Part shown: positions 17,663 through 29,867 of the stretch, in pieces
Layout of the letters: each line of letters opens with the position of its first letter
Position numbering within the stretch: the first letter of the stretch is position 1
From: a virus
Length of the DNA stretch: 29,867 nt
Virus record (IMG/VR): IMGVR_UViG_3300025133_000446
Span: 1 to 29,867 of that record
Strand: one strand, 5' to 3'
Notes under the pieces: model-generated
The model's database searches: none
Seen by the model: only the letters and a program-made list of their open reading frames with translations
What the model was told of the DNA's origin: nothing
Made by a program: the position numbers and the translations under genes

Positions 17663-17749
17663 GTTGCGAGGTGGGTTGCATTCTTCGGAGTGCAACCTTC
17701 CGCATAACTTTGTGCGAATAAACGAAACGCGGAAACGCAAAACGAAAGG
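17663..17749 (+). repeat. Structured leader repeat, copy B (87 nt)
   Basis: Same element as copy A with one substitution, which here adds a G-C pair to the UUCG-capped stem (G17674-C17697, ten pairs). It ends in ACGAAAGG (17742-17749) and is followed by GATAAATGAA, where a three-codon ATG-AAA-TGA at 17754-17762 overlaps the real start at 17759. Confidence 0.85.
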
Positions 17750-17758
17750 ATAAATGAA

Positions 17759-18037
17759 ATGAATGCAAAATTAGTACAAGATAAAAAATCGGGATGTTGG
17801 GTTGCCAATAGCCATGAGGCATGGTTTAACCATAAGTGGGTTTGCAATATATGTAAATGCAATGTAAGTGGTGCGATGCCGAAAATTATTGGCATCAATG
17901 GTGAAACAACTATCAACTGTCCAGAATGTTTTTCTGAAGATACAGGCACATCACCAGATTGGATTTGTTGTAATAGCGATACCGATAAAATCCCCATTGA
18001 AAATTATTGTGAATGTGCTGAATGTCGGGGAATATAA
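17759..18037 (+). CDS. Cysteine-rich small early protein (11 Cys in 92 residues)
   Basis: Cys occur as C-N-I-C-K-C (29-34), C-P-E-C (54-57), a CC pair (70-71) and C-E-C-A-E-C (84-89), so one or two zinc-binding knuckles are likely. The N-terminus (MNAKLVQDKKSGCWVANSHEAW) looks globular. No named family recognised. AAAGGA lies eight bases before the ATG at 17759. It follows leader copy B. DNA, RNA or protein binding are all open. Confidence 0.62.
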   Translation: MNAKLVQDKKSGCWVANSHEAWFNHKWVCNICKCNVSGAMPKIIGINGETTINCPECFSEDTGTSPDWICCNSDTDKIPIENYCECAECRGI

Positions 18038-18057
18038 AACAGGCGAGGTGCATCTCA

Positions 18058-18081
18058 CCGCATAACTTTGTGCGAATAAAC
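18058..18081 (+). repeat. Partial third copy of the leader core (24 nt)
   Basis: The 24 bases from CCGCATAACTTTG to GAATAAAC are identical to 17297-17320 and 17700-17723. The flanks differ: upstream is a different small hairpin (GGTG/CACC), downstream is GGC-GAAA-GCC, a GNRA-type hairpin, then CCGAAAGG. So the core is kept while the hairpins around it are replaced by other ones. Confidence 0.8.
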
Positions 18082-18114
18082 TAAAACAGGCGAAAGCCGA
18101 AAGGATAAATGAAA

Positions 18115-18360
18115 ATGCGAATAATTAAAGAAAAAGACGCAATCACTATTGCTACTGAAGGCGTGGTTTTAGCACTCTCAGAAAAATTATATCGCCAGCA
18201 ACGTGCAGAAAATATTGCACAGAATAAATGCAATGGTGGTGAGCCGTTGCTGTGTGAGTATTTTGAACAGAGTAAAACGGGCAGGAATGTCAAACGATAT
18301 TTGCCGCTATCAATTCACCGATGGCAAAAGGTACAAAAACATGAACAAGCAAACAAATAA
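18115..18360 (+). CDS. Small early protein of unknown function (81 residues)
   Basis: The product (MRIIKEKDAITIATEG...) has an N-terminal beta hairpin, a helix (LALSEKLYRQQRAENIAQ) and a basic C-terminus. Not recognised. Two in-frame ATGs follow AAAGGA: 18109 is three bases away and 18115 is nine, so I chose the second. Its end overlaps the next gene by 20 bases. Confidence 0.55.
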   Translation: MRIIKEKDAITIATEGVVLALSEKLYRQQRAENIAQNKCNGGEPLLCEYFEQSKTGRNVKRYLPLSIHRWQKVQKHEQANK

Positions 18361-18562
18361 GTTTCATTGTGATTTGAAACACCCAACCAGAAAAGAAATA
18401 ATTGCCCGCCAAAATGTTCTCGCAATGTTAAAAATGTACCAAATGGCGAACGCATCATTAAGCCGAAAAGAATGTTTTGAATTGATGCTAAAAAAAGAAC
18501 GAAAGTTTTTGGGGTTGGATATAAAACTAAAACCAAACAAGAATAGGAAAAAACGAAAATGA
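18341..18562 (+). CDS. Small basic early protein (73 residues), unknown
   Basis: The product is Lys/Arg-rich (ending KPNKNRKKRK) with two predicted helices (RKEIIARQNVLAMLKMYQM and RKECFELMLKKERKFL), suggesting a nucleic-acid contact. AAAGG at 18327-18331 lies about nine bases before the ATG at 18341, inside the upstream gene. Stop overlaps the next start as ATGA. Confidence 0.55.
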   Translation: MNKQTNKFHCDLKHPTRKEIIARQNVLAMLKMYQMANASLSRKECFELMLKKERKFLGLDIKLKPNKNRKKRK

Positions 18563-18744
18563 AAAACGGAAAAAAAATAACTTGCCCACATTGCAAAAAA
18601 CAAGCAACAATTTATCATGGCAAATTTACCGCGCTAATGTGCGGGCGAATGCAGGATGGTGCAGTTGTTGAGGGTTGCGGTAAAATGGTCGATAAAGCAG
18701 ATTGGCTGGAAGGCACAAAAGCAAGTAAGCCCGAAACCTGTTAA
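18559..18744 (+). CDS. Zinc-ribbon-like small protein (61 residues)
   Basis: C-P-H-C at 9-12 and later Cys at 28 and 40 form a plausible four-Cys zinc site: 'ITCPHCKKQATIYHGKFTALMC....GCG'. Such ribbons are frequent in small phage proteins that act with replication or transcription proteins. The ATG overlaps the upstream stop (ATGA). The exact role is not visible. Confidence 0.62.
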   Translation: MKNGKKITCPHCKKQATIYHGKFTALMCGRMQDGAVVEGCGKMVDKADWLEGTKASKPETC

Positions 18745-18824
18745 GATAAAACAACAATTTGACCGTTGTTCAAAAAAGCGCACAACGCGCACCAACGGCG
18801 AATGTAAAACGAAAGGAGTGCAAT

Positions 18825-19667
18825 ATGGCACTACGCGCAACGAAACCGTCGGCGCGAACAAGACGGTTAAAATTATTGATGTACGGTGATGCAGGAGTTG
18901 GTAAAACAACCGCTTGCTGCCAAATGCCCGCGCCGTACTTGATTGATTCCGAACGCGGTACGGATAATTACCACGAACTTGTCAACGCGGTTGGTGGTGC
19001 AGTTTTCCAAACAACTTCAATTGAAGATGTGATTGATGAAGTGCGCAATTTATCAATCGAACCGCATGATTTTAAGACGTTGGTAATTGATTCTATTTCA
19101 CCCTTGTTTTTTGATTTGGTCGAAAAGTGTGAAAAAGAGGTTGGCAATGAGTGGGGCAAACATTACCAAGAAGCCAGCAAGCACATGAAACGCTTGGTGA
19201 ATTTGTTGCTGCGCTTGGATATGAACGTTGTTATCACTGCGCACGCAAAGCCAGAATACGGTGACGAAATGAAAGTGATTGGTACAACCTTTGAAGGTTG
19301 GAAACGATTGCCTTACATTTTCGATTTGGTATTGCACTTGGAAAAGCCAACACCAACGAAGCGATTTGCGCGAGTTTGCAAAACTCGAATTGAGGGTTTT
19401 CCTGATGGCGAAACATTTGAATGGACATTTGAAGAATTGGCCAAACGCTATTCGATGCAAGAACTTGAACGAACTGCGAAGGTCGTTACGCCAGCAACTT
19501 CAAAACAGGTTGCAGAAATTGAAGCGTATGTAATTAACTACGTAAGCGGTGGCGAATTTGTAAGCAATTGTTTGACAAAACTCGGCATTGATGAATTGAA
19601 GGATTTAACAAAAGAACAGGCAACTAAAATGGTTGCCGCAATTAAAAAGAAAGTGAGTGTAAAGTAA
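18825..19667 (+). CDS. Sak4-like RecA-family ATPase (single-strand annealing/recombination)
   Basis: The 280-residue protein has Walker A GDAGVGKTT at 21-29, Walker B TLVIDS (85-90, D89) and 'VVITAHAK' at 135-142, the layout of Sak4-like phage ATPases (AAA_24). Sak4 proteins support phage recombination and pair with an SSB, which is exactly the next gene here. I chose ATG 18825 because AAAGGAG at 18812-18818 lies upstream and the family starts just before the ATPase core; the frame is open further upstream to 18759. Last base overlaps the next start (TAATG). Confidence 0.9.
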   Translation: MALRATKPSARTRRLKLLMYGDAGVGKTTACCQMPAPYLIDSERGTDNYHELVNAVGGAVFQTTSIEDVIDEVRNLSIEPHDFKTLVIDSISPLFFDLVEKCEKEVGNEWGKHYQEASKHMKRLVNLLLRLDMNVVITAHAKPEYGDEMKVIGTTFEGWKRLPYIFDLVLHLEKPTPTKRFARVCKTRIEGFPDGETFEWTFEELAKRYSMQELERTAKVVTPATSKQVAEIEAYVINYVSGGEFVSNCLTKLGIDELKDLTKEQATKMVAAIKKKVSVK

Positions 19668-20095
19668 TGACATTTAATTTTGATGCAACTGGAGTAGAGG
19701 AAAAAACCTTTATCTGTTTTCCTGCGGGTGAATATGAAGCCGAAATTGTTGAGATAAAACAACAGGTTTCAAAGAAGGGTAACGATATGCTAAAACTTGA
19801 TATTGATTGCTATTCAAACGATGGCAAGAAGGTGCGGGTTTTTGATTATATTGTTGCGCCTTCATCACTGTACAAATTAAAAGCAATCTGCAAATTTACT
19901 GGGATTGCTTTTGATGGTAAAATCGAGGAACAATTGCTGAAAGGCAAGCGCGTATTTGTGAAGTTAAAGATTGACCCAGAAGGCGAATACCCTGCGCGTA
20001 ATTCAATCGCAGCATATATTGGGGCTTGTAGTCAAAAACAGCAACCCCAACCTGAAACAACGAAGCCAATAATAGATGATGATATTCCATTTTGA
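19667..20095 (+). CDS. Single-stranded DNA-binding protein, DUF669 family
   Basis: The 142-residue protein has the OB-like DUF669 pattern ('FPAGEYEAEIVEIKQQVSKKGNDMLKLDIDCY') and a Pro/Gln-rich linker. It ends in DDDIPF, the same last six residues as E. coli SSB. That tip is the docking site for many host repair and replication proteins in bacteria, so this phage SSB probably recruits them too. Pairing with Sak4 directly upstream supports a recombination role. DUF669 as SSB is known for several phages; the tip interaction is my inference. Confidence 0.88.
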   Translation: MTFNFDATGVEEKTFICFPAGEYEAEIVEIKQQVSKKGNDMLKLDIDCYSNDGKKVRVFDYIVAPSSLYKLKAICKFTGIAFDGKIEEQLLKGKRVFVKLKIDPEGEYPARNSIAAYIGACSQKQQPQPETTKPIIDDDIPF

Positions 20096-20101
20096 TATTT
20101 A

Positions 20102-20172
20102 ACCTTTCGTGCCGTGGGCGGTGTAAAAACCGTCTGCGGTGAAAGGTAACGAAAAGACAACAAACGAAAGGT
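20102..20172 (+). promoter_or_regulatory. Structured leader with an anti-ribosome-site arm before the IbrB-like gene
   Basis: ACCTTTC (20102-20108) pairs with GAAAGGT (20141-20147), enclosing an 11-pair hairpin (20112-20122 with 20129-20139, including three G-T pairs). The same 5' arm, ACCTTTCGT (20102-20110), is also the perfect complement of ACGAAAGGT (20164-20172), the ribosome site of the next gene. The two pairings exclude each other. No T-run follows, so it is not a simple terminator. Confidence 0.6.
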
Positions 20173-20182
20173 AAAGTAAGTA

Positions 20183-20863
20183 ATGAAAAAAAAACACGAT
20201 GAATGTATTAGTGGGATTAAAATTATTGCCAAGATTTTATTCAAAATGAAAATCGAGGAACGCATTAATTGCTTAAATGAAATACGGATGGAGTTGCACA
20301 GAGTTTCGCCATTTAAGAATGAACCTGTTGATTGTGTGCAGTGGATTAAATGCGAAGATGTTTTTGCGAACGATTACAACCCCAACAGCGTTGCCCCACC
20401 AGAAATGAAACTTTTAGAACATAGTATTGACGAGGATGGTTATACGCAACCAATTGTTGCGTGGGAACGCGAAGAGCATTTTGAGGTTATAGATGGTTTC
20501 CATCGAAATCGAGTTGGACGGGAGTGTCCGAGCGTTACAGATAGGATACACAATCATTTACCGTTAGCAGTAATAAATACAAACCGCGAAGATAGAAACG
20601 ATAGAATCGCATCGACAATTCGACACAATCGCGCAAGGGGCAAGCACAAAATTGATGCAATGGCTGAAATTGTGATTGAATTAAAACGGCGCAATTGGTC
20701 GGACAAGCGCATATCTAAAGAACTTGGCATGGATGCAGATGAAGTTTTGCGTTTATCACAAATTACTGGTCTTGCAGAAATGTTTGCAAATCATGAATTT
20801 AGTGAAGCGTGGGAAGCAGAATCTATTGACGAAAGCGATACATTAGATGAAGCAAATATTTAG
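20183..20863 (+). CDS. IbrB/ParB-like nuclease-fold protein
   Basis: The 226-residue protein carries the ParB/Srx fold as in IbrB: 'ANDYNPNSVAPPEMKLLEHS' near 62-81, DGYTQPIV at 85-92, GFHR at 105-108 and STIRHNRARGKH at 144-155. A helix-turn-helix-like end (NWSDKRISKELGMDADEVLRL, 171-191) follows. IbrB is known beside IbrA (PAPS-reductase family) in enterobacterial prophages; here the IbrA-like gene comes two genes later. A plasmid-partition role is unlikely since there is no ParA. The cluster's biochemical function is unsettled; DNA binding with sulfur or nucleotide chemistry is a guess. Confidence 0.85.
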   Translation: MKKKHDECISGIKIIAKILFKMKIEERINCLNEIRMELHRVSPFKNEPVDCVQWIKCEDVFANDYNPNSVAPPEMKLLEHSIDEDGYTQPIVAWEREEHFEVIDGFHRNRVGRECPSVTDRIHNHLPLAVINTNREDRNDRIASTIRHNRARGKHKIDAMAEIVIELKRRNWSDKRISKELGMDADEVLRLSQITGLAEMFANHEFSEAWEAESIDESDTLDEANI

Positions 20864-21236
20864 AAACTATCTTGAATGGGAAGATTGGCAACGAGGGATG
20901 TATGCGCCAATGAAACCCGAATTAGAAGAACGCATGATTGAGGATGCTATACAATTGTTGTCTAATTCGGACAAATGTTTAGCGTTCATGGAGCGTGTAA
21001 CAATAACAATGCCTATTGCAACACTTGTAAATTTAACTAATTTAGGTTGTAATCGTAAGGCGTGGATTGGTCAAGCATCATGTTTTGAATATGCTGGCTG
21101 TGTTGATTTAGCGACACGAATAGCATGGTGGAAACTAGAACCACAACAACAAAACGAAGCAAATGAAATCGCAAAATTAGTAATAAATGAATGGGAGCAA
21201 CAATGCCTAAACAAGCAATTGGTATTAATGTTTTAG
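20847..21236 (+). CDS. Unnamed phage protein between the IbrB- and IbrA-like genes
   Basis: The 129-residue protein starts 'YLEWEDWQRGMYAPM' and has the stretch NLTNLGCNRKAWIGQASCFE, then 'TRIAWWKLEPQQQNEANEIAKLVINEWE'. I recall similar N-R-R-A-W-L-G-Q-A-A-C proteins in other phages with the same two neighbours, but know no assigned function. The sequence looks helical and soluble. It overlaps the upstream gene by 17 bases and the downstream gene by 34, so the three are almost certainly one translational unit. Confidence 0.7.
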   Translation: MKQIFRNYLEWEDWQRGMYAPMKPELEERMIEDAIQLLSNSDKCLAFMERVTITMPIATLVNLTNLGCNRKAWIGQASCFEYAGCVDLATRIAWWKLEPQQQNEANEIAKLVINEWEQQCLNKQLVLMF

Positions 21237-22444
21237 AAGCAGCAAAACAGCGCATAGGTTGGACTTTTGATAATTATGAAAACATATACATTAGTTTTAG
21301 TGGGGGCAAGGATTCAACGGTAATGCTTCATCTTGTAATGGACGAGGCGATAAAAAGAAAGCGCAAGGTCGGGGTTATGTTTATTGATTTAGAAGGTCAA
21401 TATAAAATGACTATTTCGCATACTCAGGCGTGCTACGATTTATATGAAAAGCATATCGAACCGCATTGGATTTGTTTACCAATTCATTTGCGAAATGCAG
21501 TAAGTGTATACGACCCATTTTGGGTATGTTGGGAAGAATCAGAAAAAGAAAATTGGATTCGTTCCAAACCGAAAACATGTATTGACGATGAAAATTTTTA
21601 CCCTTTCTTTTGTGAAGGTATGGAGTTTGAAGAGTTTGTACCAGAATTTGGTGATTGGTTTGCAGGTGATAAAACGGCTGCGTGTTTTGTTGGTATACGA
21701 ACCGATGAAAGTTTGAATAGGTATAGAACTATTACACATAAAAACAAAAAGCGTGTAGATGATTTGGGTTGGACAACACGTGTAACTGAGCGGTGTACAA
21801 ATATTTATCCGATTTATGATTGGAGAACAGAAGATGTTTGGGCATATCATGGAAAGAATCCCGATAGACCATATAACAAATTATACGATTTAATGTACAA
21901 AGCAGGTTTGACAATACACCAAAGTAGGATTTGCCAGCCCTATGGCGATGACCAAAGAAGGGGGTTATGGTTATTTCATTTAATCGAGCCAGAAACATGG
22001 TCAAGGGTTGTTGCAAGAGTAAATGGGGCAAACTCTGGTGCGTTATATGTAAATGAATCTGGAAATATGACGGGTTATAGAAAGATAAGCAAGCCAGAGG
22101 GGCATACGTGGGAAAGTTTTGCAAACCTGCTTGTAAATTCAATGCCACCAAAAACTTGCGAACACTATAAAAACAAAATTGCGAAGTTTTGTCAATGGTG
22201 GCAAGAACGAGGGTACAGTGAGGGTATTCCTGATGAAGGGGATTTGCGGCTGGAACAAGATAGAAAAATTCCATCTTGGCGCAGGGTGTGTAAATCATTG
22301 TTGCGTAATGATTTTTGGTGTAAGGGATTAAGTTTTACGCAAACAAAATCAACGGCATATCAAAAATATTTGGATTTTATGAAGCAAAAAAGAGAAACAA
22401 TGGAATTGAGTGGCATGCTATTTGAAAAACGAAAGGTAAAGTAA
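21203..22444 (+). CDS. IbrA-like phosphoadenosine-phosphosulfate reductase family protein (DUF3440)
   Basis: The 413-residue protein has the ATP-pyrophosphatase PP-loop SGGKDS at 33-38 and the DUF3440-type C-terminal half with 'IYDWRTEDVWAYHG', 'QSRICQPYGDDQRRGLW' and 'CEHYKNKIAKFCQWW'. PP-loop enzymes activate a substrate by adenylation; relatives include PAPS reductases and DndC of DNA phosphorothioation. IbrA itself has been tied to gene regulation in E. coli prophages. The start is ATG 21203, with GGGAG at 21193-21197, rather than the ATG at 21191 that overlaps the site. Complete and apparently functional. Confidence 0.87.
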   Translation: MPKQAIGINVLEAAKQRIGWTFDNYENIYISFSGGKDSTVMLHLVMDEAIKRKRKVGVMFIDLEGQYKMTISHTQACYDLYEKHIEPHWICLPIHLRNAVSVYDPFWVCWEESEKENWIRSKPKTCIDDENFYPFFCEGMEFEEFVPEFGDWFAGDKTAACFVGIRTDESLNRYRTITHKNKKRVDDLGWTTRVTERCTNIYPIYDWRTEDVWAYHGKNPDRPYNKLYDLMYKAGLTIHQSRICQPYGDDQRRGLWLFHLIEPETWSRVVARVNGANSGALYVNESGNMTGYRKISKPEGHTWESFANLLVNSMPPKTCEHYKNKIAKFCQWWQERGYSEGIPDEGDLRLEQDRKIPSWRRVCKSLLRNDFWCKGLSFTQTKSTAYQKYLDFMKQKRETMELSGMLFEKRKVK

Positions 22445-23328
22445 TGGTTGAAGAAAATAAAATTATTTCGATAGTTGATTGGAATGAGCATTTTGAAAAA
22501 TCTCAAACGCGAAAAATAGCCAAGCATTCTTGGGTTGCAGTGCCAAATAAACACGATGGTTTGGGATTGAAAAAGATGCTACGCGAAGAAAATGGGCTTG
22601 AAATCTTTGCCATTTGGATTTTCTTAATTCAGATTGCAAGCAAATGCGAAACGCGCGGTATTCTTGCAGACGAAAAGGGGCGGGGTTACTCAATTGACGA
22701 TATTGCCTTGAAGGTTGGCTGCAAAACGCAAACAGTTGAATGCGCAATTCCGTTTCTAGTGTCAATAAACTGGGTTTCTATAGTCACTGGTAGCACGCTA
22801 CCAGCAGACTACCAGCACGCTACCACCGCGCTACCACCAGACTACCACGGCACTGGTAGCACACTGGTAACTACATTACATAACAATACAGAACATAACA
22901 CTACAGAACAGCATATAACAAAACAGGATAAAACAGAACCATATTTTCCAGAAGGCAATTCTGTTGAAGATGAGGCTGTTAGGGCGTTCGCTACTGGATA
23001 CCTGCGAAATCCCATAATTCAAACCGTAATTTCGGCGATTCCTAAACATAGGCTGGTTAGCCCAGTGCCAACCGCGCGTGCAATCATCGCTGCAATCAAT
23101 CGCACCAACGCTAAAACGCACGAAGAACGTAAAATTGCAGCAGTCGCGCTTGCTGAACGTTTTGAGTTATATTACGCTTCGTCCGAAGGGCAACAGGAAT
23201 ATTTCAAAGACCCAGATAAATGGTTGAATGAAGATAGGCATTTGGTTGACCCAAGCGTTTGGGATTCACGAAAAAAACAAACAGAGGCTACACCGTGGGA
23301 ACGAATACACGAATTAAACGAGGAATAA
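22444..23328 (+). CDS. Replication initiator with internal origin (lambda O-like)
   Basis: The 294-residue protein has an N-terminal winged-helix-like domain (about 28-112: 'HSWVAVPNKHDGLGLKKML', 'IFAIWIFLIQIASKC', 'SIDDIALKVGCKTQTVECAIPFL'), a low-complexity Thr/His/Asn linker (115-168) and a helical C-terminal domain. This is the plan of phage initiators such as lambda O. The linker DNA is an iteron array followed by AT-rich sequence, exactly as the lambda origin lies in O. Start overlaps the upstream stop (TAATG); ACGAAAGG sits seven bases before the ATG. Sequence similarity to O itself is not evident, so the call rests on layout. Confidence 0.72.
   Translation: MVEENKIISIVDWNEHFEKSQTRKIAKHSWVAVPNKHDGLGLKKMLREENGLEIFAIWIFLIQIASKCETRGILADEKGRGYSIDDIALKVGCKTQTVECAIPFLVSINWVSIVTGSTLPADYQHATTALPPDYHGTGSTLVTTLHNNTEHNTTEQHITKQDKTEPYFPEGNSVEDEAVRAFATGYLRNPIIQTVISAIPKHRLVSPVPTARAIIAAINRTNAKTHEERKIAAVALAERFELYYASSEGQQEYFKDPDKWLNEDRHLVDPSVWDSRKKQTEATPWERIHELNEE
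22787..22874 (+). repeat. Iteron array: eight 11-bp units inside the initiator gene
   Basis: Eight contiguous 11-base units start at 22787, 22798, 22809, 22820, 22831, 22842, 22853 and 22864. Units 2-6 begin CTACCA; units 1, 7 and 8 begin CTGGTA, the inverted form. Units 1 and 2 make a perfect palindrome, CTGGTAG/CTACCAG (22787-22804). Period 11 is not a multiple of three, so the repetition is imposed at DNA level and not by the protein. It is close to one helix turn, placing all sites on one face. Confidence 0.85.
22875..22950 (+). other. AT-rich segment next to the iterons, candidate origin unwinding element
   Basis: Directly after the iterons lies a stretch with few G residues on the + strand and high A+T, including TACAGAACA twice (near 22887 and 22902) and AAAACAG twice. 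Iterons followed by an AT-rich, easily melted region within the initiator gene is the layout of the lambda origin. Strand asymmetry (A/C rich) may help single-strand exposure. Confidence 0.65.
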
Positions 23329-23329
23329 A

Positions 23330-23671
23330 ATGCTATTAACAAATAAACAAATGAACGCTATGATTGAAAAAGTGGAAACGCTAGAAACCACAATTAGACC
23401 AGATGAAATAACAGATATTAGATATGCAGTTAAAACAATCAAATTACTAATTGAACTAAACAAAAATTCGGTTGATGGAATTTTGCAACACCACAAAGCA
23501 CTTGACACATTGCTAACAATACGAAGTATTGAAAAGGCAATAGACACTGCTGAGATATGCACAAAGTGTGATGGAACTGGTGGTGTTGCCAGTAATAAAG
23601 TTTTTGGTTCAATGCTCGGTGCAATTGACGAATGCCCTGAATGTAATGGAACTGGCGAGAAAGTAGGATGA
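23330..23671 (+). CDS. Small protein with two DnaJ-type zinc knuckles
   Basis: The 113-residue protein has a helical N-terminal two-thirds (coiled-coil-like, 5-75) and then CTKCDGTGG at 77-85 and CPECNGTGE at 102-110, two CxxCxGxG knuckles that together bind one zinc as in DnaJ. No J domain is present. It might bridge replication proteins or bind DNA. Its stop overlaps the exonuclease start (ATGA), so the two are likely made together. Confidence 0.72.
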   Translation: MLLTNKQMNAMIEKVETLETTIRPDEITDIRYAVKTIKLLIELNKNSVDGILQHHKALDTLLTIRSIEKAIDTAEICTKCDGTGGVASNKVFGSMLGAIDECPECNGTGEKVG

Positions 23672-24465
23672 AAATGGAAAACACAAATTTGAAGTTTGAC
23701 TATTTTTCTCGCGTTGGCATTTCTGCAACATTATTAAAATCAATCATAAAACAATCGCCAGTACACGCAGCAACCCGAATGCGAACCTTCAAGCCATCGC
23801 CAACGATGAACCTTGGCACGGCTGCACATTGCGCAATCCTTGAACCCCATCGCTACAATGAGTTGATTGCCATTTGCCCAGATTGCGACAGGCGAACAAA
23901 AACGGGCAAAGCAGAATACGCTTCGTTTGTTGAAAGTGCTGGCAAAAAGACGGTTATCAAATACGACCAGCATGAAGCAGTAATAGCAATGGCAAATGCG
24001 GTTGATGAACATGAACACGCTACTGAATTGATGCAGGATACAAAGCGCGAAGTTGAAATTGATTTTGCATTTGATGGCGAAACGTGCAAGGCAAAAATTG
24101 ATGCAGTCAAGGGTGATAATACAATTATTGATATTAAAACAACCATTGATGCAAGCCCAGATGCCTTTGCAAGACAATCTGCAAGTTTGTTTTATCAAAT
24201 GCAAATGGCGTGGTACGCGAAGGCAATTGGTAGCAGTTGGAAAACGTGCAACTGTTATGTAATTGCGGTTGAAAATACAGAGCCTTATGGCGTTGCTGTT
24301 TATCGCTATGATGTTGATGTACTCGATAACGGCTGGAAGTTATGCTGTAGGGCATTACGACAATGGCGCGATTACAACGCAACAATTTCAAAAAATGAAA
24401 CGCCAAAAGCGTATGGCGATTGTGTTTACGATATTGAATTGCCCGCGTGGGCAGAAAGGGTTTGA
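23668..24465 (+). CDS. RecE-like PD-(D/E)XK exonuclease
   Basis: The 265-residue protein matches the PDDEXK_1/RecE C-terminal nuclease: 'NLGTAAHCAILEPHRY' at 48-63, KIDAV at 143-147 (D145) and IIDIKTT at 153-159 (D155, K157), then 'FARQSASLFYQMQMAWY'. Such enzymes chew double-stranded ends to produce 3' overhangs for annealing proteins. Together with Sak4 and the DUF669 SSB it completes a phage recombination set. A second in-frame ATG at 23674 is possible as start. Confidence 0.86.
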   Translation: MKMENTNLKFDYFSRVGISATLLKSIIKQSPVHAATRMRTFKPSPTMNLGTAAHCAILEPHRYNELIAICPDCDRRTKTGKAEYASFVESAGKKTVIKYDQHEAVIAMANAVDEHEHATELMQDTKREVEIDFAFDGETCKAKIDAVKGDNTIIDIKTTIDASPDAFARQSASLFYQMQMAWYAKAIGSSWKTCNCYVIAVENTEPYGVAVYRYDVDVLDNGWKLCCRALRQWRDYNATISKNETPKAYGDCVYDIELPAWAERV

Positions 24466-24466
24466 A

Positions 24467-24877
24467 ATGAATAAAGAAAAACTAAACGAACAACGGGTTA
24501 AGCAGGAAGGGCTTATTCAGTCACTTGCAAATCAACAAACGGTTTTGCACAAATCGCGCGTTGATGTGTATTCGCTATTGAGCGAAGGATGCCTGTATGA
24601 AGTACACGTTGAAACAGAAAACTACAGTAAAACGCGCGAAGAATTGAACTGTTCGCCAAATGTTGTTGGGGTTTGGCACGTTCCCAGTATCTTGGGCAGA
24701 TTAGAGCGTTTGACAAATCCTCAAGAAGTTACATTGATTGCAAATGAATTGATGTATGAACTGTATGAAATTACACCGTACGTGGCTACAGATTTTGGTT
24801 TACAACTTGATGAACCTGAATCGGGTGACCAAGATGCTGCGGATGATATGAAAGAAAGGGAGTTTTTGAATGATTGA
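24467..24877 (+). CDS. Unknown acidic protein (136 residues)
   Basis: The product is soluble, with an N-terminal helix (MNKEKLNEQRVKQEGLIQSLANQQTVL) and an acidic tail rich in Asp/Glu ('DEPESGDQDAADDMKERE'). The pattern 'VPSILGRLERLTNPQEVTLIANELMYEL' looks helical. No family recognised. It starts one base after the exonuclease stop, with GAAAGGG upstream, so it is part of the same operon. The frame is open further upstream, but that part only shadows the exonuclease gene. Confidence 0.65.
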   Translation: MNKEKLNEQRVKQEGLIQSLANQQTVLHKSRVDVYSLLSEGCLYEVHVETENYSKTREELNCSPNVVGVWHVPSILGRLERLTNPQEVTLIANELMYELYEITPYVATDFGLQLDEPESGDQDAADDMKEREFLND

Positions 24878-25013
24878 CAAAACAACAGAAAAACTAGGTT
24901 GCGTGGGGTTGTTTTTTGTAGTGTTTGCAACACTTTTAATGCTTGCAGTACGGGGCTTTGCATTTGGTGTTGGTGTGTATTTTGCGTTTCGCGTTTTGGG
25001 AGTTGAAATATGA
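24870..25013 (+). CDS. Small membrane protein (47 residues)
   Basis: After a short polar start (MIDKTTEKLG) the product is one long hydrophobic segment (GLFFVVFATLLMLAV) and a second semi-hydrophobic part. GGGAG lies about eight bases before the ATG. It overlaps the upstream stop by eight bases and the next start by ATGA, which supports a real gene. A membrane-directed early function such as exclusion is possible, but nothing shows it. Confidence 0.55.
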   Translation: MIDKTTEKLGCVGLFFVVFATLLMLAVRGFAFGVGVYFAFRVLGVEI

Positions 25014-25204
25014 AGAACAGTATATTTTTCTCAAAAACGTACGAAGAAATGCAGGTTGCAATCGCAATAAAAAAAGCAAACGATTATGAAAACGGAACAA
25101 CAAAATGGCAATTTGATAAACTGCGCAAGCGAATTATTGAACTTGAAAGTGAACTTGAAAAAATGAAAGGCGTAACGAATGAACGAAATAGAAACAACAA
25201 TTGA
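25010..25204 (+). CDS. Short coiled-coil protein (64 residues)
   Basis: The product is mostly charged helix; the second half (QFDKLRKRIIELESELEKMK) has a clear heptad pattern, so it probably dimerises or binds a partner helix. The ATG overlaps the upstream stop (ATGA) and the 3' end overlaps the next gene by 26 bases. Confidence 0.58.
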   Translation: MKNSIFFSKTYEEMQVAIAIKKANDYENGTTKWQFDKLRKRIIELESELEKMKGVTNERNRNNN

Positions 25205-25706
25205 CAGGAGTGCAGAATGGAAAAAAACGCTTGAACTTATGGCGGGGCTTTTTCCAAAGTGGGCGGTTACGCCACAACAATTTAATTCGTGGAAGGAACA
25301 ATTCGGGATGCTAAACCCAGAGTGGTTTCGTGAAGCATTGAAAGTTGTATACCATCGCTATAATTCTGAAACGCCAAAACCCAAATGGGTGGCGGATGCG
25401 TTCAAAGAGGTACGTGCTGGGCATCGCGGCGTACCTTTAACCGAAAGCGATAGCGCAGAATCGCAACGGCAAAAAGCAATACAAGAACGAAAAGAAGAAG
25501 AATATCAAGTGAATTTGGAACGCGAAAACGCTTGGCTGGTTGTTGCAAGTTGGGATAACGAAGAACGAATAAACTGGGCTACACAATTCAAAGAACGATT
25601 TGAGGGGATTGCAGAACTTAACGATACGGCGAATATGAATACATGGTCTAAAACATTTGCACAATTTGTAAAAGCATTTCGGGTAGTTGAGGAACGAAAC
25701 GCATGA
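25179..25706 (+). CDS. Possible helicase-loader-like replication accessory protein
   Basis: The 175-residue protein has an N-terminal helical region ('LELMAGLFPKWAVTPQQFNSWKEQFG', 'FREALKVVYHRY', 'PKPKWVADAFKEV', about 18-82) that resembles the N-terminal domain of phage helicase loaders/inhibitors of the G39P type. A charged helix (95-115) and a C-terminal helical domain follow. This assignment is by pattern only. Its place in the replication block and the absence of a phage helicase make a loader for the host helicase attractive. ATGA overlap joins it to the next gene. Confidence 0.45.
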   Translation: MNEIETTIDRSAEWKKTLELMAGLFPKWAVTPQQFNSWKEQFGMLNPEWFREALKVVYHRYNSETPKPKWVADAFKEVRAGHRGVPLTESDSAESQRQKAIQERKEEEYQVNLERENAWLVVASWDNEERINWATQFKERFEGIAELNDTANMNTWSKTFAQFVKAFRVVEERNA

Positions 25707-26107
25707 ACGGAATAAAATCAAGCAAGGCAACAACACCATTTTCAAAGTTGTCGCAACGTTGCCAAAATATTTTGATTGAAATGAAAAAAAAAGAATGGAC
25801 AAGCAGAATTGAAATATCAAAAACCTTAGATATAACAGTTGCGCAAATAACTTCATCAATGGAGTTATTGAAATACCACGGCTATAAATTTGATTCGCGC
25901 ATAATTGAAAATAAAAATTATTATGAATACAGGTTTACGGATGGTGAACAACGTGAGCAGGTTCAAAGGCTTGCCACACGAAGCGTAAACGCCAGCCTAG
26001 AGCGTTTGATAATCGAAATGAACCGTATCCGCAATACGTCAAACGAGCGCGGTATACGCAAAATAGCGAGTAATGCGCTTGAAGCGTGCGGTTTATTGAC
26101 GGATTAG
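25703..26107 (+). CDS. Winged-helix DNA-binding protein (134 residues)
   Basis: Residues 13-80 ('LSQRCQNILIEMKKKEWTSR', 'IEISKTLDITVAQITSSMELLKYHGY', then strands 'YYEYRFTDG') form a good winged helix-turn-helix pattern. The C-terminal part is a helical tail. It may regulate the phage's early genes. It is the last gene before an intergenic region with TATAAT and an inverted repeat, so it could act there. ATGA overlap with the upstream gene. Confidence 0.62.
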   Translation: MNGIKSSKATTPFSKLSQRCQNILIEMKKKEWTSRIEISKTLDITVAQITSSMELLKYHGYKFDSRIIENKNYYEYRFTDGEQREQVQRLATRSVNASLERLIIEMNRIRNTSNERGIRKIASNALEACGLLTD

Positions 26108-26164
26108 GGCGGGTTTTGTACCTTTTCGCTGAATAATGACAAAAAAATGGTAAAATTGCCACAT

Positions 26165-26197
26165 ATTGGCTACATTGAGCCGATAAGTTTGTATAAT
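26165..26197 (+). promoter_or_regulatory. Candidate promoter with an operator-like inverted repeat
   Basis: ATTGGCT (26165-26171) and AGCCGAT (26178-26184) form a seven-pair inverted repeat (one G-T pair), followed after seven bases by a perfect TATAAT (26192-26197). No clear -35 is present at normal distance; the dyad covers where an activator or repressor would bind. It drives the small genes from 26241. Confidence 0.5.
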
Positions 26198-26240
26198 GGA
26201 AAGCATGTCAAACGAACAAACAACAAAAGGAAACGAAACA

Positions 26241-26402
26241 ATGAACAAACTAAACATCATCATCAAAAAGAACAGAAGCAACAAAGAAGTGGCATTCAAG
26301 ATTGTGCGAAGTTGTGGTCAACTTCTCAAAAGAAGAATGAAATTAAACGATGCGTACTTCATGCTCGCAAACGGTTCAGCAAGAATCGCAAAAGATTTTT
26401 GA
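26241..26402 (+). CDS. Small basic protein (53 residues), unknown
   Basis: The product (MNKLNIIIKKNRSNKEVAFK...) is basic, with a helix near 'EVAFKIVRSCGQLLKRRMKLNDAYFML'. Not recognised. In-frame ATGs also occur at 26196 and 26205; I chose 26241 because AAGGA at 26227-26231 lies nine bases upstream and because 26196 falls within the promoter box. Confidence 0.48.
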   Translation: MNKLNIIIKKNRSNKEVAFKIVRSCGQLLKRRMKLNDAYFMLANGSARIAKDF

Positions 26403-26437
26403 ACAAACACAAACCCCAAAACGAAAGGCAAAACAAA

Positions 26438-26746
26438 ATGACAAACGAAACAACAAACAAAGAAACAATCGACACAATCAGTCTTTCGCAGTTGGTTGAT
26501 ATTGTTGAACAGGCAGAGGATGAAATCCTTGAAGAAACAGATGAAACAATGGCTTTTCTTCGTATGAAGAATTATCAACAATTGAGTATGCTTCTCGACT
26601 ATTTGCGAATGGCAAAAAGAGCAACAGGTGAACGACAGCAAATGATTTTGGAATATGCCAAGAAGCACTACAAAAGTTTGTACACTCGGCAACAGCAAAA
26701 AGTCGAGTTCATACAGCCTCTTTTACGCAGCGTATCTTTTACTTAA
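26438..26746 (+). CDS. Small helical protein (102 residues), unknown
   Basis: The product starts MTNETTNKETID, similar in style to the Asn/Thr-rich starts of the genes at 16992 and 17354, then is helical ('LSQLVDIVEQAEDEILEETDE' and further). ACGAAAGG lies nine bases before the ATG at 26438. No family recognised. The open frame extends upstream but that part is not plausible coding sequence. Confidence 0.58.
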   Translation: MTNETTNKETIDTISLSQLVDIVEQAEDEILEETDETMAFLRMKNYQQLSMLLDYLRMAKRATGERQQMILEYAKKHYKSLYTRQQQKVEFIQPLLRSVSFT

Positions 26747-26779
26747 TAAACCGCCGAAAAACAGAAAGGGAAAATGAAA

Positions 26780-27034
26780 ATGGAACAAAGAAAATATGAC
26801 ATCAAAGGCATGACCGTCAATGGAAGGGAATTGCTTGCACTGATGGGTAATTCATTTGGAATCAGCGGTGGGGCTTGGCTAGATGAGAAGAATGTTCATA
26901 ATCTCACAGACAAAGCAATTGAAGGAATTGTTTTTATGTTGTGGACTATGAAGAATCTTCCACCAGACAAAGAAAAAGACAAGCAACTGGTGTTGAAAGA
27001 ACTTGGCAATGGGTTGTGGGAAGATAATGAATAA
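26780..27034 (+). CDS. Small protein (84 residues), unknown
   Basis: The product has 'YDIKGMTVNGRELLALMGN', a helix-containing centre and 'KQLVLKELGNGLWEDNE' at the end. No family recognised. AAAGGG is three bases from the ATG at 26774 and nine from 26780, so I chose the second. The leader (AATAAACCGCCG) recurs after this gene's own stop. Confidence 0.55.
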   Translation: MEQRKYDIKGMTVNGRELLALMGNSFGISGGAWLDEKNVHNLTDKAIEGIVFMLWTMKNLPPDKEKDKQLVLKELGNGLWEDNE

Positions 27035-27066
27035 ACCGCCGCAAGGCACAACGAAAGGATAGCACA

Positions 27067-27156
27067 ATGAAATATTTGAAATTATTACTTGAAGCCACAA
27101 TAGAATTTTTAACGGTGGGGTTGAGCAGCAGACCACATAACGGCGGTGAAAAATGA
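27067..27156 (+). CDS. Very short coupled reading frame (29 residues)
   Basis: ACGAAAGG (27051-27058) stands eight bases before the ATG, and the TGA overlaps the next gene's ATG (ATGA). The product starts MKYLKLLLEATIEFLTVGL. The perfect early-gene ribosome site argues that it is translated; it may be a real small amphipathic peptide or only a coupling leader for the gene at 27153. Confidence 0.42.
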   Translation: MKYLKLLLEATIEFLTVGLSSRPHNGGEK

Positions 27157-27470
27157 AAACAGCAATTTATTCAATTCAATACAGCAATTGCAAAGAACAA
27201 CCAAAATGCTTTATTCAACACAGACCAGCATTAGCCTGTTTTAATCGTGAGGCTAGCCGTCTAAGAAAGGGCGATGTATCTTGGGGTTCTGTTAGGCTGG
27301 TTAAATGGGAAGCAACAGGAACGCCGCGCAGCGTTGCAAGTGCAATGGTTGAAATTGGTTCAGCGATTTCGGGTGGTATTCCAATTCGACAAATAAACAA
27401 TCAGGCGATTGTGCAAATGGCAAAAATAGAATCGTGGATTCTCCAAGAACAGGTAAGTATTTTGGCGTAA
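27153..27470 (+). CDS. Unknown protein (105 residues), last gene of the early block
   Basis: The product (MKTAIYSIQYSNCKEQPKCF...) has a beta-like N-terminus and an amphipathic helix in the C-terminal half ('PRSVASAMVEIGSAISGG'). No family recognised. It lacks its own clear ribosome site and is coupled to the short frame before it (ATGA). A TATAAT, a dyad and a terminator follow its stop. Confidence 0.58.
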   Translation: MKTAIYSIQYSNCKEQPKCFIQHRPALACFNREASRLRKGDVSWGSVRLVKWEATGTPRSVASAMVEIGSAISGGIPIRQINNQAIVQMAKIESWILQEQVSILA

Positions 27471-27480
27471 TCTGTTAGAA

Positions 27481-27507
27481 TATAATTGGTATCGGTATAC
27501 GCGATAC
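27481..27507 (+). promoter_or_regulatory. TATAAT box followed by an operator-like dyad
   Basis: A perfect TATAAT (27481-27486) is followed by GTATCG (27489-27494), GTATAC (27495-27500, itself a palindrome) and CGATAC (27502-27507), an inverted repeat over the expected transcription start. TGTTA/TAACA at 27473 and 27510 flank it. A -35 is not evident. This looks like a repressible start site upstream of the terminator and the sigma-like gene. Confidence 0.45.
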
Positions 27508-27517
27508 TTTAACATAT

Positions 27518-27574
27518 CCCCCTTGACCCCTGCCGAGTTTTTTCGTTTACTTGGTAGGGGTTCTTTTTTGGGGG
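27518..27574 (+). terminator. Intrinsic terminator before the sigma-like gene
   Basis: ACCCCTGCC (27526-27534) pairs with GGTAGGGGT (27553-27561), nine pairs with one G-T, followed by TTCTTTTTT. An outer CCCCC (27518-27522)/GGGGG (27570-27574) can extend it, with a second T-run after it (27582-27589). It would end early transcription, or attenuate the promoter just upstream. Confidence 0.68.
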
Positions 27575-27638
27575 CATTATATTTTTTTTAATGTGCAATA
27601 ATAAAATAGCCGAAACGTATATTATTGGAGTAATTAAA

Positions 27639-28151
27639 ATGGCAGAAATTAGGGGAATTGATGTAAACGAAATTTCAAACGCTGCGTTGCGCTGGGCAAA
27701 ACACGCGCAACATCGCCACGGTTACGGAAAATGGGAACTGGACGAATTGCACAATGAGGCGTTTATTATTACTGCGCACTTGGTTGAATCTGGACGTTAC
27801 GACCCCACCAAGGCGAAGTTGATTACGTTTCTATCTTACGCATTACCTTTTGAAGTTAGGCGAAAATATAGGCGTATGAATGGCGAAAGATTGCTTACAA
27901 ATAAAGAAGGCAAAAAAGAATACCAGCGCAAAGAATATGTTAGCAGTGATATAATTGAATCGGCGGAAACCAATTATGATGGTACACTACAAACAATTGA
28001 ACCCAAGCCAAATAGCGAATGGGCAAGGGCTAGGATTGCAGGGTTTACGGCTAGGGAATTGACAAAACGCGGGCTGAGTTACAAACAACAAAAACAACAG
28101 GCGGAGCAATTCAGAAATGACCAACGGAAATCAAAAGGGCAAACGCGGTGA
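27639..28151 (+). CDS. Sigma-70-like phage transcription factor
   Basis: The 170-residue protein resembles sigma region 2 at about 33-79 ('ELDELHNEAFIITAHLVESG', 'YDPTKAKLITFLSYALPFEVRRKYRR'). A weak region-4-like helical pair follows near 'ARARIAGFTARELTKRGLSYKQQKQQAEQF'. It could redirect host RNA polymerase to late promoters. It is the first gene after a terminator and precedes lysis, packaging and structural genes, the right place for a late regulator. I chose ATG 27639 with TTGGAG eight bases upstream; an ATG at 27591 has no site. Confidence 0.68.
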   Translation: MAEIRGIDVNEISNAALRWAKHAQHRHGYGKWELDELHNEAFIITAHLVESGRYDPTKAKLITFLSYALPFEVRRKYRRMNGERLLTNKEGKKEYQRKEYVSSDIIESAETNYDGTLQTIEPKPNSEWARARIAGFTARELTKRGLSYKQQKQQAEQFRNDQRKSKGQTR

Positions 28152-28458
28152 ACGGTTTGTTGCGCAATGGCTTAGGGATTCTTTTGGATGTAAAGCGCGG
28201 CGGGGGAAACAATACTGTGGGCTAGAAGGAAATGCCGATGTGGTTGGCGGGTTTCCAAACACGCACTGCGAAGTTAAATTTGTGGAATCCCTGAATTTGT
28301 ACAAGGCAATGCATCAAGCAATAAACGAATGTGGGCAGTCAATACCGTATGTTGCACATAAAAAAAATCGGCAAGAACTCTTGATAACAGTACGCGCAAA
28401 AGATTTATTAGCATTTTCTTTGGCAGTGGTCGAGCAAGATGCGATAAACAAACGATGA
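28117..28458 (+). CDS. Hjc-like PD-(D/E)XK resolvase or endonuclease
   Basis: The 113-residue protein has the nuclease residues E12 (GKRGERF), D41 (GNADVVG) and E52-V-K54 (HCEVK), the pattern of archaeal Hjc-like Holliday-junction resolvases and related small phage nucleases. It would resolve branched concatemers before packaging. The start overlaps the sigma-like gene by 35 bases, with GGAG at 28102-28105. The stop overlaps the next gene (ATGA). Confidence 0.78.
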   Translation: MTNGNQKGKRGERFVAQWLRDSFGCKARRGKQYCGLEGNADVVGGFPNTHCEVKFVESLNLYKAMHQAINECGQSIPYVAHKKNRQELLITVRAKDLLAFSLAVVEQDAINKR

Positions 28459-28676
28459 CAAAAGATAATCAAAATGGTTGGGGCGAACATAAGCGCCTCG
28501 TTTTACATAGGCTTGGAGCAATAGAAAATGATTTACACACAATTGAAAAGCGCTTGGCACGAATGGAAAAACAAATGGCAGTGCAAGCAAGCCAAGCGCG
28601 TTTGGTTGCTGGTGCAATCGGCGCAGTTGCGGGTTTGTTACCTGCTGTTATTACCATTATTGTTAGCAGGTTGTAG
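28455..28676 (+). CDS. XhlA-like membrane protein, candidate lysis accessory
   Basis: The 73-residue protein has a coiled-coil-like segment (about 12-45, 'LHTIEKRLARMEKQMAVQ') and one C-terminal membrane span (50-71, 'VAGAIGAVAGLLPAVITIIVS'), the build of XhlA-type proteins that work with holins. The last half of the gene is also read in a second frame by the next gene (28528 on), so these bases code twice. ATGA overlap with the resolvase gene. Confidence 0.65.
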   Translation: MTKDNQNGWGEHKRLVLHRLGAIENDLHTIEKRLARMEKQMAVQASQARLVAGAIGAVAGLLPAVITIIVSRL

Positions 28677-29034
28677 CATGTTTGATTTTATGACAACAAA
28701 CAAGCCCACGTTTGCGGATGATATGCAAGAACTTGTTGTGGATACTGCGCAGCACGCAACGCAGGAACTGGCTGTTCTTTCTTGGGTTGGTGGATTGGCA
28801 ACAATGGCGGGCGTTGTCGCGCTAGTTATTACGCGCGGTGCAATGGGAATGCGTGCAATCATCATTGGGTGTTTGCTTATTGTGTTAAACTTTGCCATAG
28901 CGAATTATCTTTCTTGGATTTTGGTGCCTGTTCTTGTAGCAACTGGCGCAATTAGTTTATCTTGGTCGTATGTTACGATTAAAGAAATGTTACTTAAAAA
29001 AAAGGAATGCGAACATGATGTTAGCAACGATTAG
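28528..29034 (+). CDS. Lipobox-bearing, multi-span membrane protein, candidate holin/lysis protein
   Basis: In the 168-residue frame, a basic hydrophobic segment (35-48) runs into LLAGC (45-49), a lipoprotein signal peptidase II motif with C49. Three membrane spans follow (about 83-101, 107-126, 128-148), then a Lys-rich end. The start is uncertain: ATG 28528, TTG 28606, or ATG 28678, which would drop the lipobox. If the lipobox is used, its signal lies in another frame within the XhlA-like gene, like the nested Rz/Rz1 spanin genes. Three spans suggest a holin. Confidence 0.6.
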   Translation: MIYTQLKSAWHEWKNKWQCKQAKRVWLLVQSAQLRVCYLLLLPLLLAGCSMFDFMTTNKPTFADDMQELVVDTAQHATQELAVLSWVGGLATMAGVVALVITRGAMGMRAIIIGCLLIVLNFAIANYLSWILVPVLVATGAISLSWSYVTIKEMLLKKKECEHDVSND

Positions 29035-29137
29035 TGATATGTTGGGGAATATGTGGTGGACGGCTCTGGTGGGTGTGGTTTGTTTTGTTGGCGGTGTGTA
29101 TTTTTCATCAACAATAAAAAGTAAGATGGGCAGATAA
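29015..29137 (+). CDS. Small membrane protein (40 residues)
   Basis: MMLATISDMLGNMWWTALVG... has one clear membrane span (14-30, 'WWTALVGVVCFVGGVYF') and a short basic end. AAAGG lies about ten bases upstream of the ATG, and it overlaps the previous gene's end by 20 bases. In a lysis cassette a short second membrane protein may be an antiholin or small holin, but this is a guess from position. Confidence 0.55.
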   Translation: MMLATISDMLGNMWWTALVGVVCFVGGVYFSSTIKSKMGR

Positions 29138-29142
29138 ACCAA

Positions 29143-29430
29143 ATGCCAAATGGCGAACCAGAAAAATACGCTGTTAAGGTTGACCATTTAGGCGCAATAA
29201 TTCCTGCACCAACAAAAGAACTATTGGAAGAGGTAGCGCGTGGGGTTCATTTAGCGGTTGCTGGTTCTGCGATGGTTGATATGCAAGACAAAGACAACCC
29301 CCTACCAAATTGGGATACGCTGCCCGATAACGTTAAGAACTATTGGAGAGAGGGCGCACGATGTTCGTACGCGATTATCGCATTACACGGCGGTGGTTCG
29401 GTTGAACAACTGAAGCCAGATGCCAAGTAG
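29143..29430 (+). CDS. Unknown protein with a W..LP..VK..W motif (95 residues)
   Basis: The protein has an amphipathic helix (KELLEEVARGVHLAVAGSAM, 25-44) and NWDTLPDNVKNYWRE at 56-70. The last resembles a segment of RyR-type domains and of small phage proteins with 'W..LP..VK..W', but the match is short. It sits between the membrane proteins and the HNH gene and overlaps the latter by eleven bases. Confidence 0.6.
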   Translation: MPNGEPEKYAVKVDHLGAIIPAPTKELLEEVARGVHLAVAGSAMVDMQDKDNPLPNWDTLPDNVKNYWREGARCSYAIIALHGGGSVEQLKPDAK

Positions 29431-29803
29431 ACCGCGAACATTCTGCATCAACGGTTGCAAAGCACAATCAATATCAGACTCCCGATTGTGTGCAACCTGC
29501 GATGCAGTGCGGCAGAAAAAGATAGATGCAAGGCGGGCGGTAATTGCGAAGAAACGTACAGCAAGGTTTGGTACATCGCGCGAACAAGGTTACGATTGGC
29601 AGTGGGAAAAAGTGTCTAAGCACGTAAGGCGAAACGAACCAATTTGCCGAATGTGCAAGAATGCACTAGCCAGTTGCGTTGACCATATCGTGCCGATTAA
29701 ACAGGGTGGTGAACGTTTAGCAATTGATAACTTGCAGCCATTATGCCACAAATGCCACGCCGTCAAGACCGCACAGGACGTTAGCCGATACAAAGTGGTA
29801 TGA
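29420..29803 (+). CDS. HNH endonuclease (packaging-associated)
   Basis: The 127-residue protein has an N-terminal four-Cys cluster (C9, C13, C24, C27), then the HNH core: CRMC at 76-79, DHI at 88-90 (H89), N104 and CHKCH at 109-113. Such HNH proteins next to terminase genes are needed for terminase cutting in HK97-like phages. The next gene downstream across the window join is the small terminase, which fits this role. Its TGA overlaps the ATG of that gene. Confidence 0.88.
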   Translation: MPSRPRTFCINGCKAQSISDSRLCATCDAVRQKKIDARRAVIAKKRTARFGTSREQGYDWQWEKVSKHVRRNEPICRMCKNALASCVDHIVPIKQGGERLAIDNLQPLCHKCHAVKTAQDVSRYKVV

Positions 29804-29867
29804 TACGGATAACGCGCACGAATGCAGGGGGGGCGGTTCTAATCGCTACAGGGCTGCGCTACCGTAT
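29800..29867 (+). CDS. terS: 5' end of the terminase small subunit gene, running off the window end
   Basis: An ATG at 29800 overlaps the TGA of the HNH gene (ATGA), and its frame stays open for 22 codons to the last base. Joined to base 1 it continues, through a second ATG that spans the join, into the small-terminase frame at position 2. The full product would then have 151 residues, a normal size for P27-like small terminases. The ATGA coupling matches the overlap style of the other late genes. I infer circularity from this; a chance open frame of 68 bases is possible. Confidence 0.5.
   Translation, partial: MIRITRTNAGGAVLIATGLRYR

Follow-up and report, generated by a model that had tools for sequence, protein, structure and literature searches.

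Replication origins inside the initiator gene are known from lambda O, SPP1 gene 38, and pSK41 rep. Lambda O binds repeats within its own gene as well as the single-stranded DNA of the AT-rich region (PMC7466680), and in SPP1, direct repeats and an AT-rich unwinding element lie inside gene 38 (gp38/oriL; theta replication) (PMC6316719). The pSK41 Rep protein uses its N-domain to bind Rep boxes located partway along its gene and its C-domain to contact DnaG, and it can do without the linker that the origin encodes (PMC5703833). RepA_N initiators (pSK41 and pTZ2162 Rep, PLE RepA) have a winged-helix N-domain and an exchangeable C-domain (PMC5703833, PMC7145576, PMC8263062), the layout also seen here. 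We place a phage replication origin, with a probability of about 0.88, at positions 22787 to 22939 of virus record IMGVR_UViG_3300025133_000446 (29,867 nucleotides [nt], analyzed in full and referred to as the window), within the phage's own initiator gene (Table 1). Its architecture may best be read as a variant of the three intragenic origins.

Table 1. Positions of the proposed origin and of the initiator domains in the window
Feature	Position	Strand	Basis
Initiator gene for phage replication; product of 294 aa with a winged-helix N-domain, a linker, and a helical C-domain	22444..23328	+	ORF, sub-threshold profile matches, AF2
Winged-helix N-domain, residues 1-118, proposed to bind the array	22444..22797	+	AF2 pLDDT, PDB fold matches
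Array, eight contiguous 11-bp iterons with TACCA core	22787..22874	.	Direct reading, periodicity, shuffles
Disordered linker, residues 135-184, over array end and tract	22846..22995	+	pLDDT <50
Tract, 14 ANNA(C) pentanucleotides, proposed to serve as an unwinding element or ssDNA-binding track	22870..22939	+	A-rich coding strand
Core of the helical C-domain, residues 190-263, proposed to recruit replication proteins of the host	23011..23232	+	AF2 helices, moderate confidence

The locus resembles ori-lambda and the origins of Stx phages in having iterons, bordered by an AT-rich region, midway along the initiator gene, but the lambda iterons number 4, are longer, and are inverted repeats individually, whereas the window has single-turn 11-bp units in two orientations. 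Downstream of the initiator gene, where a counterpart of the lambda P-type helicase loader was sought, are a gene for a 113-aa protein with weak, mixed matches and then an exonuclease VIII-like gene. SPP1 gene 38 likewise encloses repeats and an unwinding-type region, but SPP1 encodes a helicase loader and a helicase, neither of which was recognized in the window. As in the window, the pSK41 repeats lie in the middle of rep; however, these are four Rep boxes, reportedly with repeats converging on poly-A, in contrast to eight contiguous units with no poly-A center. The descriptions of RepA_N initiators consulted also mention no 5-nt tract such as that of the window.

The eight units of the array, with their starts, are CTGGTAGCACG (22787), CTACCAGCAGA (22798), CTACCAGCACG (22809), CTACCACCGCG (22820), CTACCACCAGA (22831), CTACCACGGCA (22842), CTGGTAGCACA (22853), and CTGGTAACTAC (22864). 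Units 2 to 6 are direct, reading CTACCA and carrying TACCA, and units 1, 7, and 8 are inverted, reading CTGGTA and carrying the core as its reverse complement, TGGTA, with the offset unchanged; both orientations share a single 11-bp register. Direct reading agrees with the initial annotation, which had reported eight contiguous units with the first and the last two inverted relative to the middle five. Among lags of 5 to 39 across the window, the strongest periodicity is lag 11 at about 22784. Over 77 nt of the ORF, lag-11 identity is 0.688, above all 5,000 codon shuffles (mean, 0.372; maximum, 0.519), which form an imperfect null for both the array and the tract. Because 3 divides neither 11 nor 5, a protein repeat explains neither element, and the earlier assertion that the protein does not account for the 11-bp period holds, with an array identity beyond that of the codon shuffles.

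The tract contains the strongest period-5 signal of the window. Its first seven pentamers are ACTAC, ATTAC, ATAAC, AATAC, AGAAC, ATAAC, and ACTAC, and its last seven are AGAAC, AGCAT, ATAAC, AAAAC, AGGAT, AAAAC, and AGAAC, such that A is first in all 14 and AC is last in 12. Five consecutive ANNAC units are matched 4 times in the tract, compared with 0.00 expected from shuffles. The initial annotation had described this region as an AT-rich stretch beside the array with TACAGAACA present twice. Both copies are there, and positions 22875 to 22940 are 70% AT, but this AT content is unremarkable, since about 5% of 66-bp windows are equally AT rich; the marked feature is the 5-nt repeat. In the open-access literature searched, no description of a 5-nt repeat in phage origins was apparent.

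The AlphaFold2 (AF2) model of the initiator was built from an alignment of 51 homologous sequences (prediction from the single sequence gave a mean pLDDT of only 35) and is confident over residues 1 to 120 (pLDDT of 80 to 98 in 10-residue blocks). It reproduces the layout noted earlier from the sequence, a winged-helix N-domain, a low-complexity linker at the repeats, and a C-domain, and the linker is predicted to be disordered. The only Pfam match of the initiator, PF09681 (Phage_rep_org_N; E = 5.4e-4), falls below the curated cutoff (20.4 versus 23.3 bits), and the same model matches 7 of 51 homologues at E ≤ 0.01. A search of PHROGs returned a weak match to a DnaD-like helicase loader (E = 1.3e-4), a scan with NCBIfam returned nothing, and neither RepA_N (PF06970) nor the lambda O family was matched in Pfam at E ≤ 0.1; no O-like PHROG was matched either. 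With VIA-align, the top four matches of the N-domain are the RepA_N initiators 4pql, 4pt7, 5kbj, and 4pta (Z = 6.8 to 6.1; root mean square deviation [rmsd] of 2.3 to 2.6, but 4.9 for 5kbj); these Z scores, below 8, are middling, and the highest is little above those of generic winged helices (Z ≤ 5.9). Foldseek found no match of the N-domain in the PDB at E ≤ 0.001, and the window protein alone, used as a query against genome contigs and the PDB, found nothing. The RepA_N initiators are the best PDB fold matches although their sequence model is unmatched, and the N-domain is likely to have a RepA_N/DnaD-like fold, read as a fold and not as membership in either family. The label "lambda-style" applied by the initial annotation is appropriate for the architecture only, because the fold of the N-domain is nearest to the RepA_N/DnaD type and no lambda O model was matched.

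Homologues were gathered from one relative, found through the motif WVAVPNKHD, and then by profile scans, which yielded 65 viral loci and 8 loci in metagenome-assembled genomes (MAGs; labeled Planctomycetota, Verrucomicrobia, and Hydrogenedentes). Removal of near duplicates left 52, of which the 46 of at least 180 aa were used for repeat counts; kinship remains among these, and the loci are partly dependent. All members are metagenomic or MAG-borne, and the family includes no cultured phage. Neither the window protein nor three relatives had a match by tblastn in 50,697 phage records, and a fourth relative was matched by its C-terminal half only. Of the 46 loci, 31 have identical 6-mers spaced by 11 bp in the linker zone (nt 300 to 560; 2.4 loci expected from codon shuffles), 27 have them at 22 bp (2.1 expected), and 17 have them at 33 bp (3.4 expected); in a subgroup, they recur at 21 bp (17 loci) and 42 bp (11 loci), and the 21-bp unit of some members contains the inverted pair TGCGGGA/TCCCGCA. 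The arrays begin directly after the N-domain, but the units differ among loci (CTGTCA/CTGACA, CTCACC, CTGCCG, and GCTCAGAGCAC), with CTACCA recurring in two planctomycete-labeled loci (L235 and L239). Inverted matches fall into a single class modulo 11, with a concentration of 2.58 versus a null of 0.97, and at moduli 8 to 10 and 12 to 14 the concentration is 0.73 to 0.90. The 11-bp phase is therefore kept while units and linker have changed, the outcome for which the initial annotation had proposed to look in related phages. C-domains also differ among homologues. In four relatives (L358, L362, L361, and L331), the array has a different sequence and is about 33 bp shorter (33 to 34 alignment gaps), corresponding to 3 units, or 11 codons. 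Covariation of the units with the putative recognition helix (residues 95 to 107), suggested by inspection, disappeared once overall identity was controlled (partial r = 0.03 to 0.06), and the best covarying segment, residues 16 to 29 (partial r = 0.36), is exploratory only. Five short proteins of 117 to 137 aa consist of the N-domain alone, two on viral contigs with the gene lacking an array (L228:3001-3345 and L229:2998-3351) and three in MAGs (L237, L240, and L241); these may act as regulators or decoys or represent split initiators.

In 27 of the 46 loci, the period-5 signal past the array lies above that of codon shuffles (z > 3), compared with 2 of 46 for each of the periods 4, 6, and 7. 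The pentamers are (R)GAAN in most members and ANNAC in the window and others. Against the same four relatives, the tract is the best-kept DNA segment (65 to 80% identity, versus 47 to 67% for the N-domain and 35 to 57% for the C-domain). A scan of viral contigs for seven consecutive ANNAC units, applied with no protein criterion, found at least 119 loci. Among the matches listed, 45 distinct ORFs of at least 150 aa lie over the tract, and of the 29 scanned singly, 18 have a PHROG replication annotation and five more match a hidden Markov model (HMM) of the window N-domain. The remaining ORFs include repeat-rich, methyltransferase, and unannotated ones; the tract thus shows enrichment in initiators without being confined to them. 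In the initiators found this way, the tract typically lies at residues 105 to 170, and the N-domains vary (Lin1244_N, DUF1376, DnaD-like, and others).

Blind scans with TACCA, CATCA, or ANNAC repeats reached phage initiator genes repeatedly. CATCA had been chosen as a background control for TACCA and was rejected: 88 of its 120 matches lay in ORFs of at least 200 aa, many of them near-identical and with an N-domain of winged-helix type by eye. The control failed because it also hit initiators, and it shows that the architecture is common. Arrays of 11-bp units with a CATCA core after the N-domain and no 5-nt tract occur in L105 and about 40 similar loci, in L108, L148, and L174, and in others; since this group and several TACCA initiators lack it, the tract is not universal. 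In one initiator of another family, a strong 5-nt tract (TAGNN, z = 11.5) comes after four 11-bp units with a TACCA core (L012:4459-4600). Outside recognized initiator genes, L017, L023, L031, and L099 contain long TACCA arrays of 11-bp units, perfect or nearly so.

These distributions bear on what else the array could be. Autoregulation is common among initiators, and phased winged-helix sites would suit a repressor equally, such that the array might be an operator through which the initiator or another phage regulator controls the gene while replication starts elsewhere. We consider this improbable: the array lies about 340 bp into the gene and not at a promoter; most homologues have after it a conserved 5-nt tract for which an operator has no need; and the PHROG annotations of the genes that host such repeats are of the replication type. 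As to a start elsewhere, reading and TRF of the intergenic stretch at 16.6 to 16.9 kb found no comparable array, only a two-copy repeat of 12 to 13 bp, and GC skew is uninformative, showing no switch at the array and only a dip to about 0 at 22.5 to 24 kb. Less probable still is that the array serves the ParB-like protein, whose gene lies 1.6 kb upstream (20183 to 20863; PHROG E = 6.6e-70), as a centromere-like partition site or a modification-related site, because array position and phase track the initiator N-domain in dozens of phages, an observation that tests this alternative only in part. A functionless, low-complexity stretch of DNA and linker left by replication slippage is comparably improbable, for although some members (L245 and L281) have identical units, as after fresh slippage, neither the 11-bp period (protein repeats would prefer periods divisible by 3) nor inverted units in register, divergent units with the phase kept, or a conserved tract would be expected.

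For the origin reading, the repeat geometry, the conservation, and the domain layout are what is seen, and from them we infer binding, opening, and loading. The winged-helix N-domains would occupy the eight 11-bp units along one face of the DNA, at a spacing of about one helical turn, with both orientations bound and fixed in the same register. The assembled complex would strain and then open the adjoining tract, and one strand of the 5-nt repeat could be kept single-stranded by regularly spaced contacts of the initiator or of a host factor. The C-domain would recruit a host helicase or primase, and the linker, with a sequence imposed by the repeats in the DNA, would act as a flexible tether.

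Because the tract is present in initiators that differ in their N- and C-domains, it may be read by a common factor. A broader proposal, which we regard as tentative and on balance doubtful, is that many phages use the tract as a general and exchangeable element of their origins: a strand-specific single-stranded "loading code" with a 5-nt step, read in common by a replication protein of the host or through a shared mode of ssDNA binding, regardless of the N- and C-domains. Such a code would be unlike both DnaA-trios, which have 3-nt steps, and plasmid elements, which are 13-mers. Repeats read as a single strand are described for winged-helix plasmid Reps, which bind one strand of the repeats in the opened element (TrfA 13-mers) (PMC4081077), and regularly spaced 5'-ATCA repeats are used by Vibrio RctB (PMC11711613). 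The tract may work in an analogous manner, although in those accounts the repeat lengths differ from that of the window tract and the origins lie outside the initiator gene. The combination of 11-bp phased units and then a 5-nt tract after the N-domain could locate origins in many uncultured phages from sequence. It also raises the question of a tract that is better conserved than the iterons and common to initiators with unrelated binding domains; if read as a single strand, the tract would constitute a new opening code beside the DnaA-trios and the plasmid 13-mers.

Positions 17743 to 29867 of the window match the terminal part of the 49.6-kb record IMGVR_UViG_3300008050_000064 at 99.8 to 99.98% identity, and the window to the left of about 17.2 kb has no match in the examined parts of that record. 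Either phages have exchanged modules here, or the assembly is chimeric, with its joint in a repetitive stretch near 17.7 kb. A PAPS reductase-like/DUF3440 gene (21191 to 22444) lies immediately upstream of the initiator gene and is preceded by Sak4-like, single-stranded DNA-binding protein (SSB), and ParB-like genes. The terminase is about 44% identical to those of phages of Firmicutes and others. Repeats of 12 bp, rich in A, C, and G, occur at 26388 to 26477, within an unannotated ORF (26147 to 26746).
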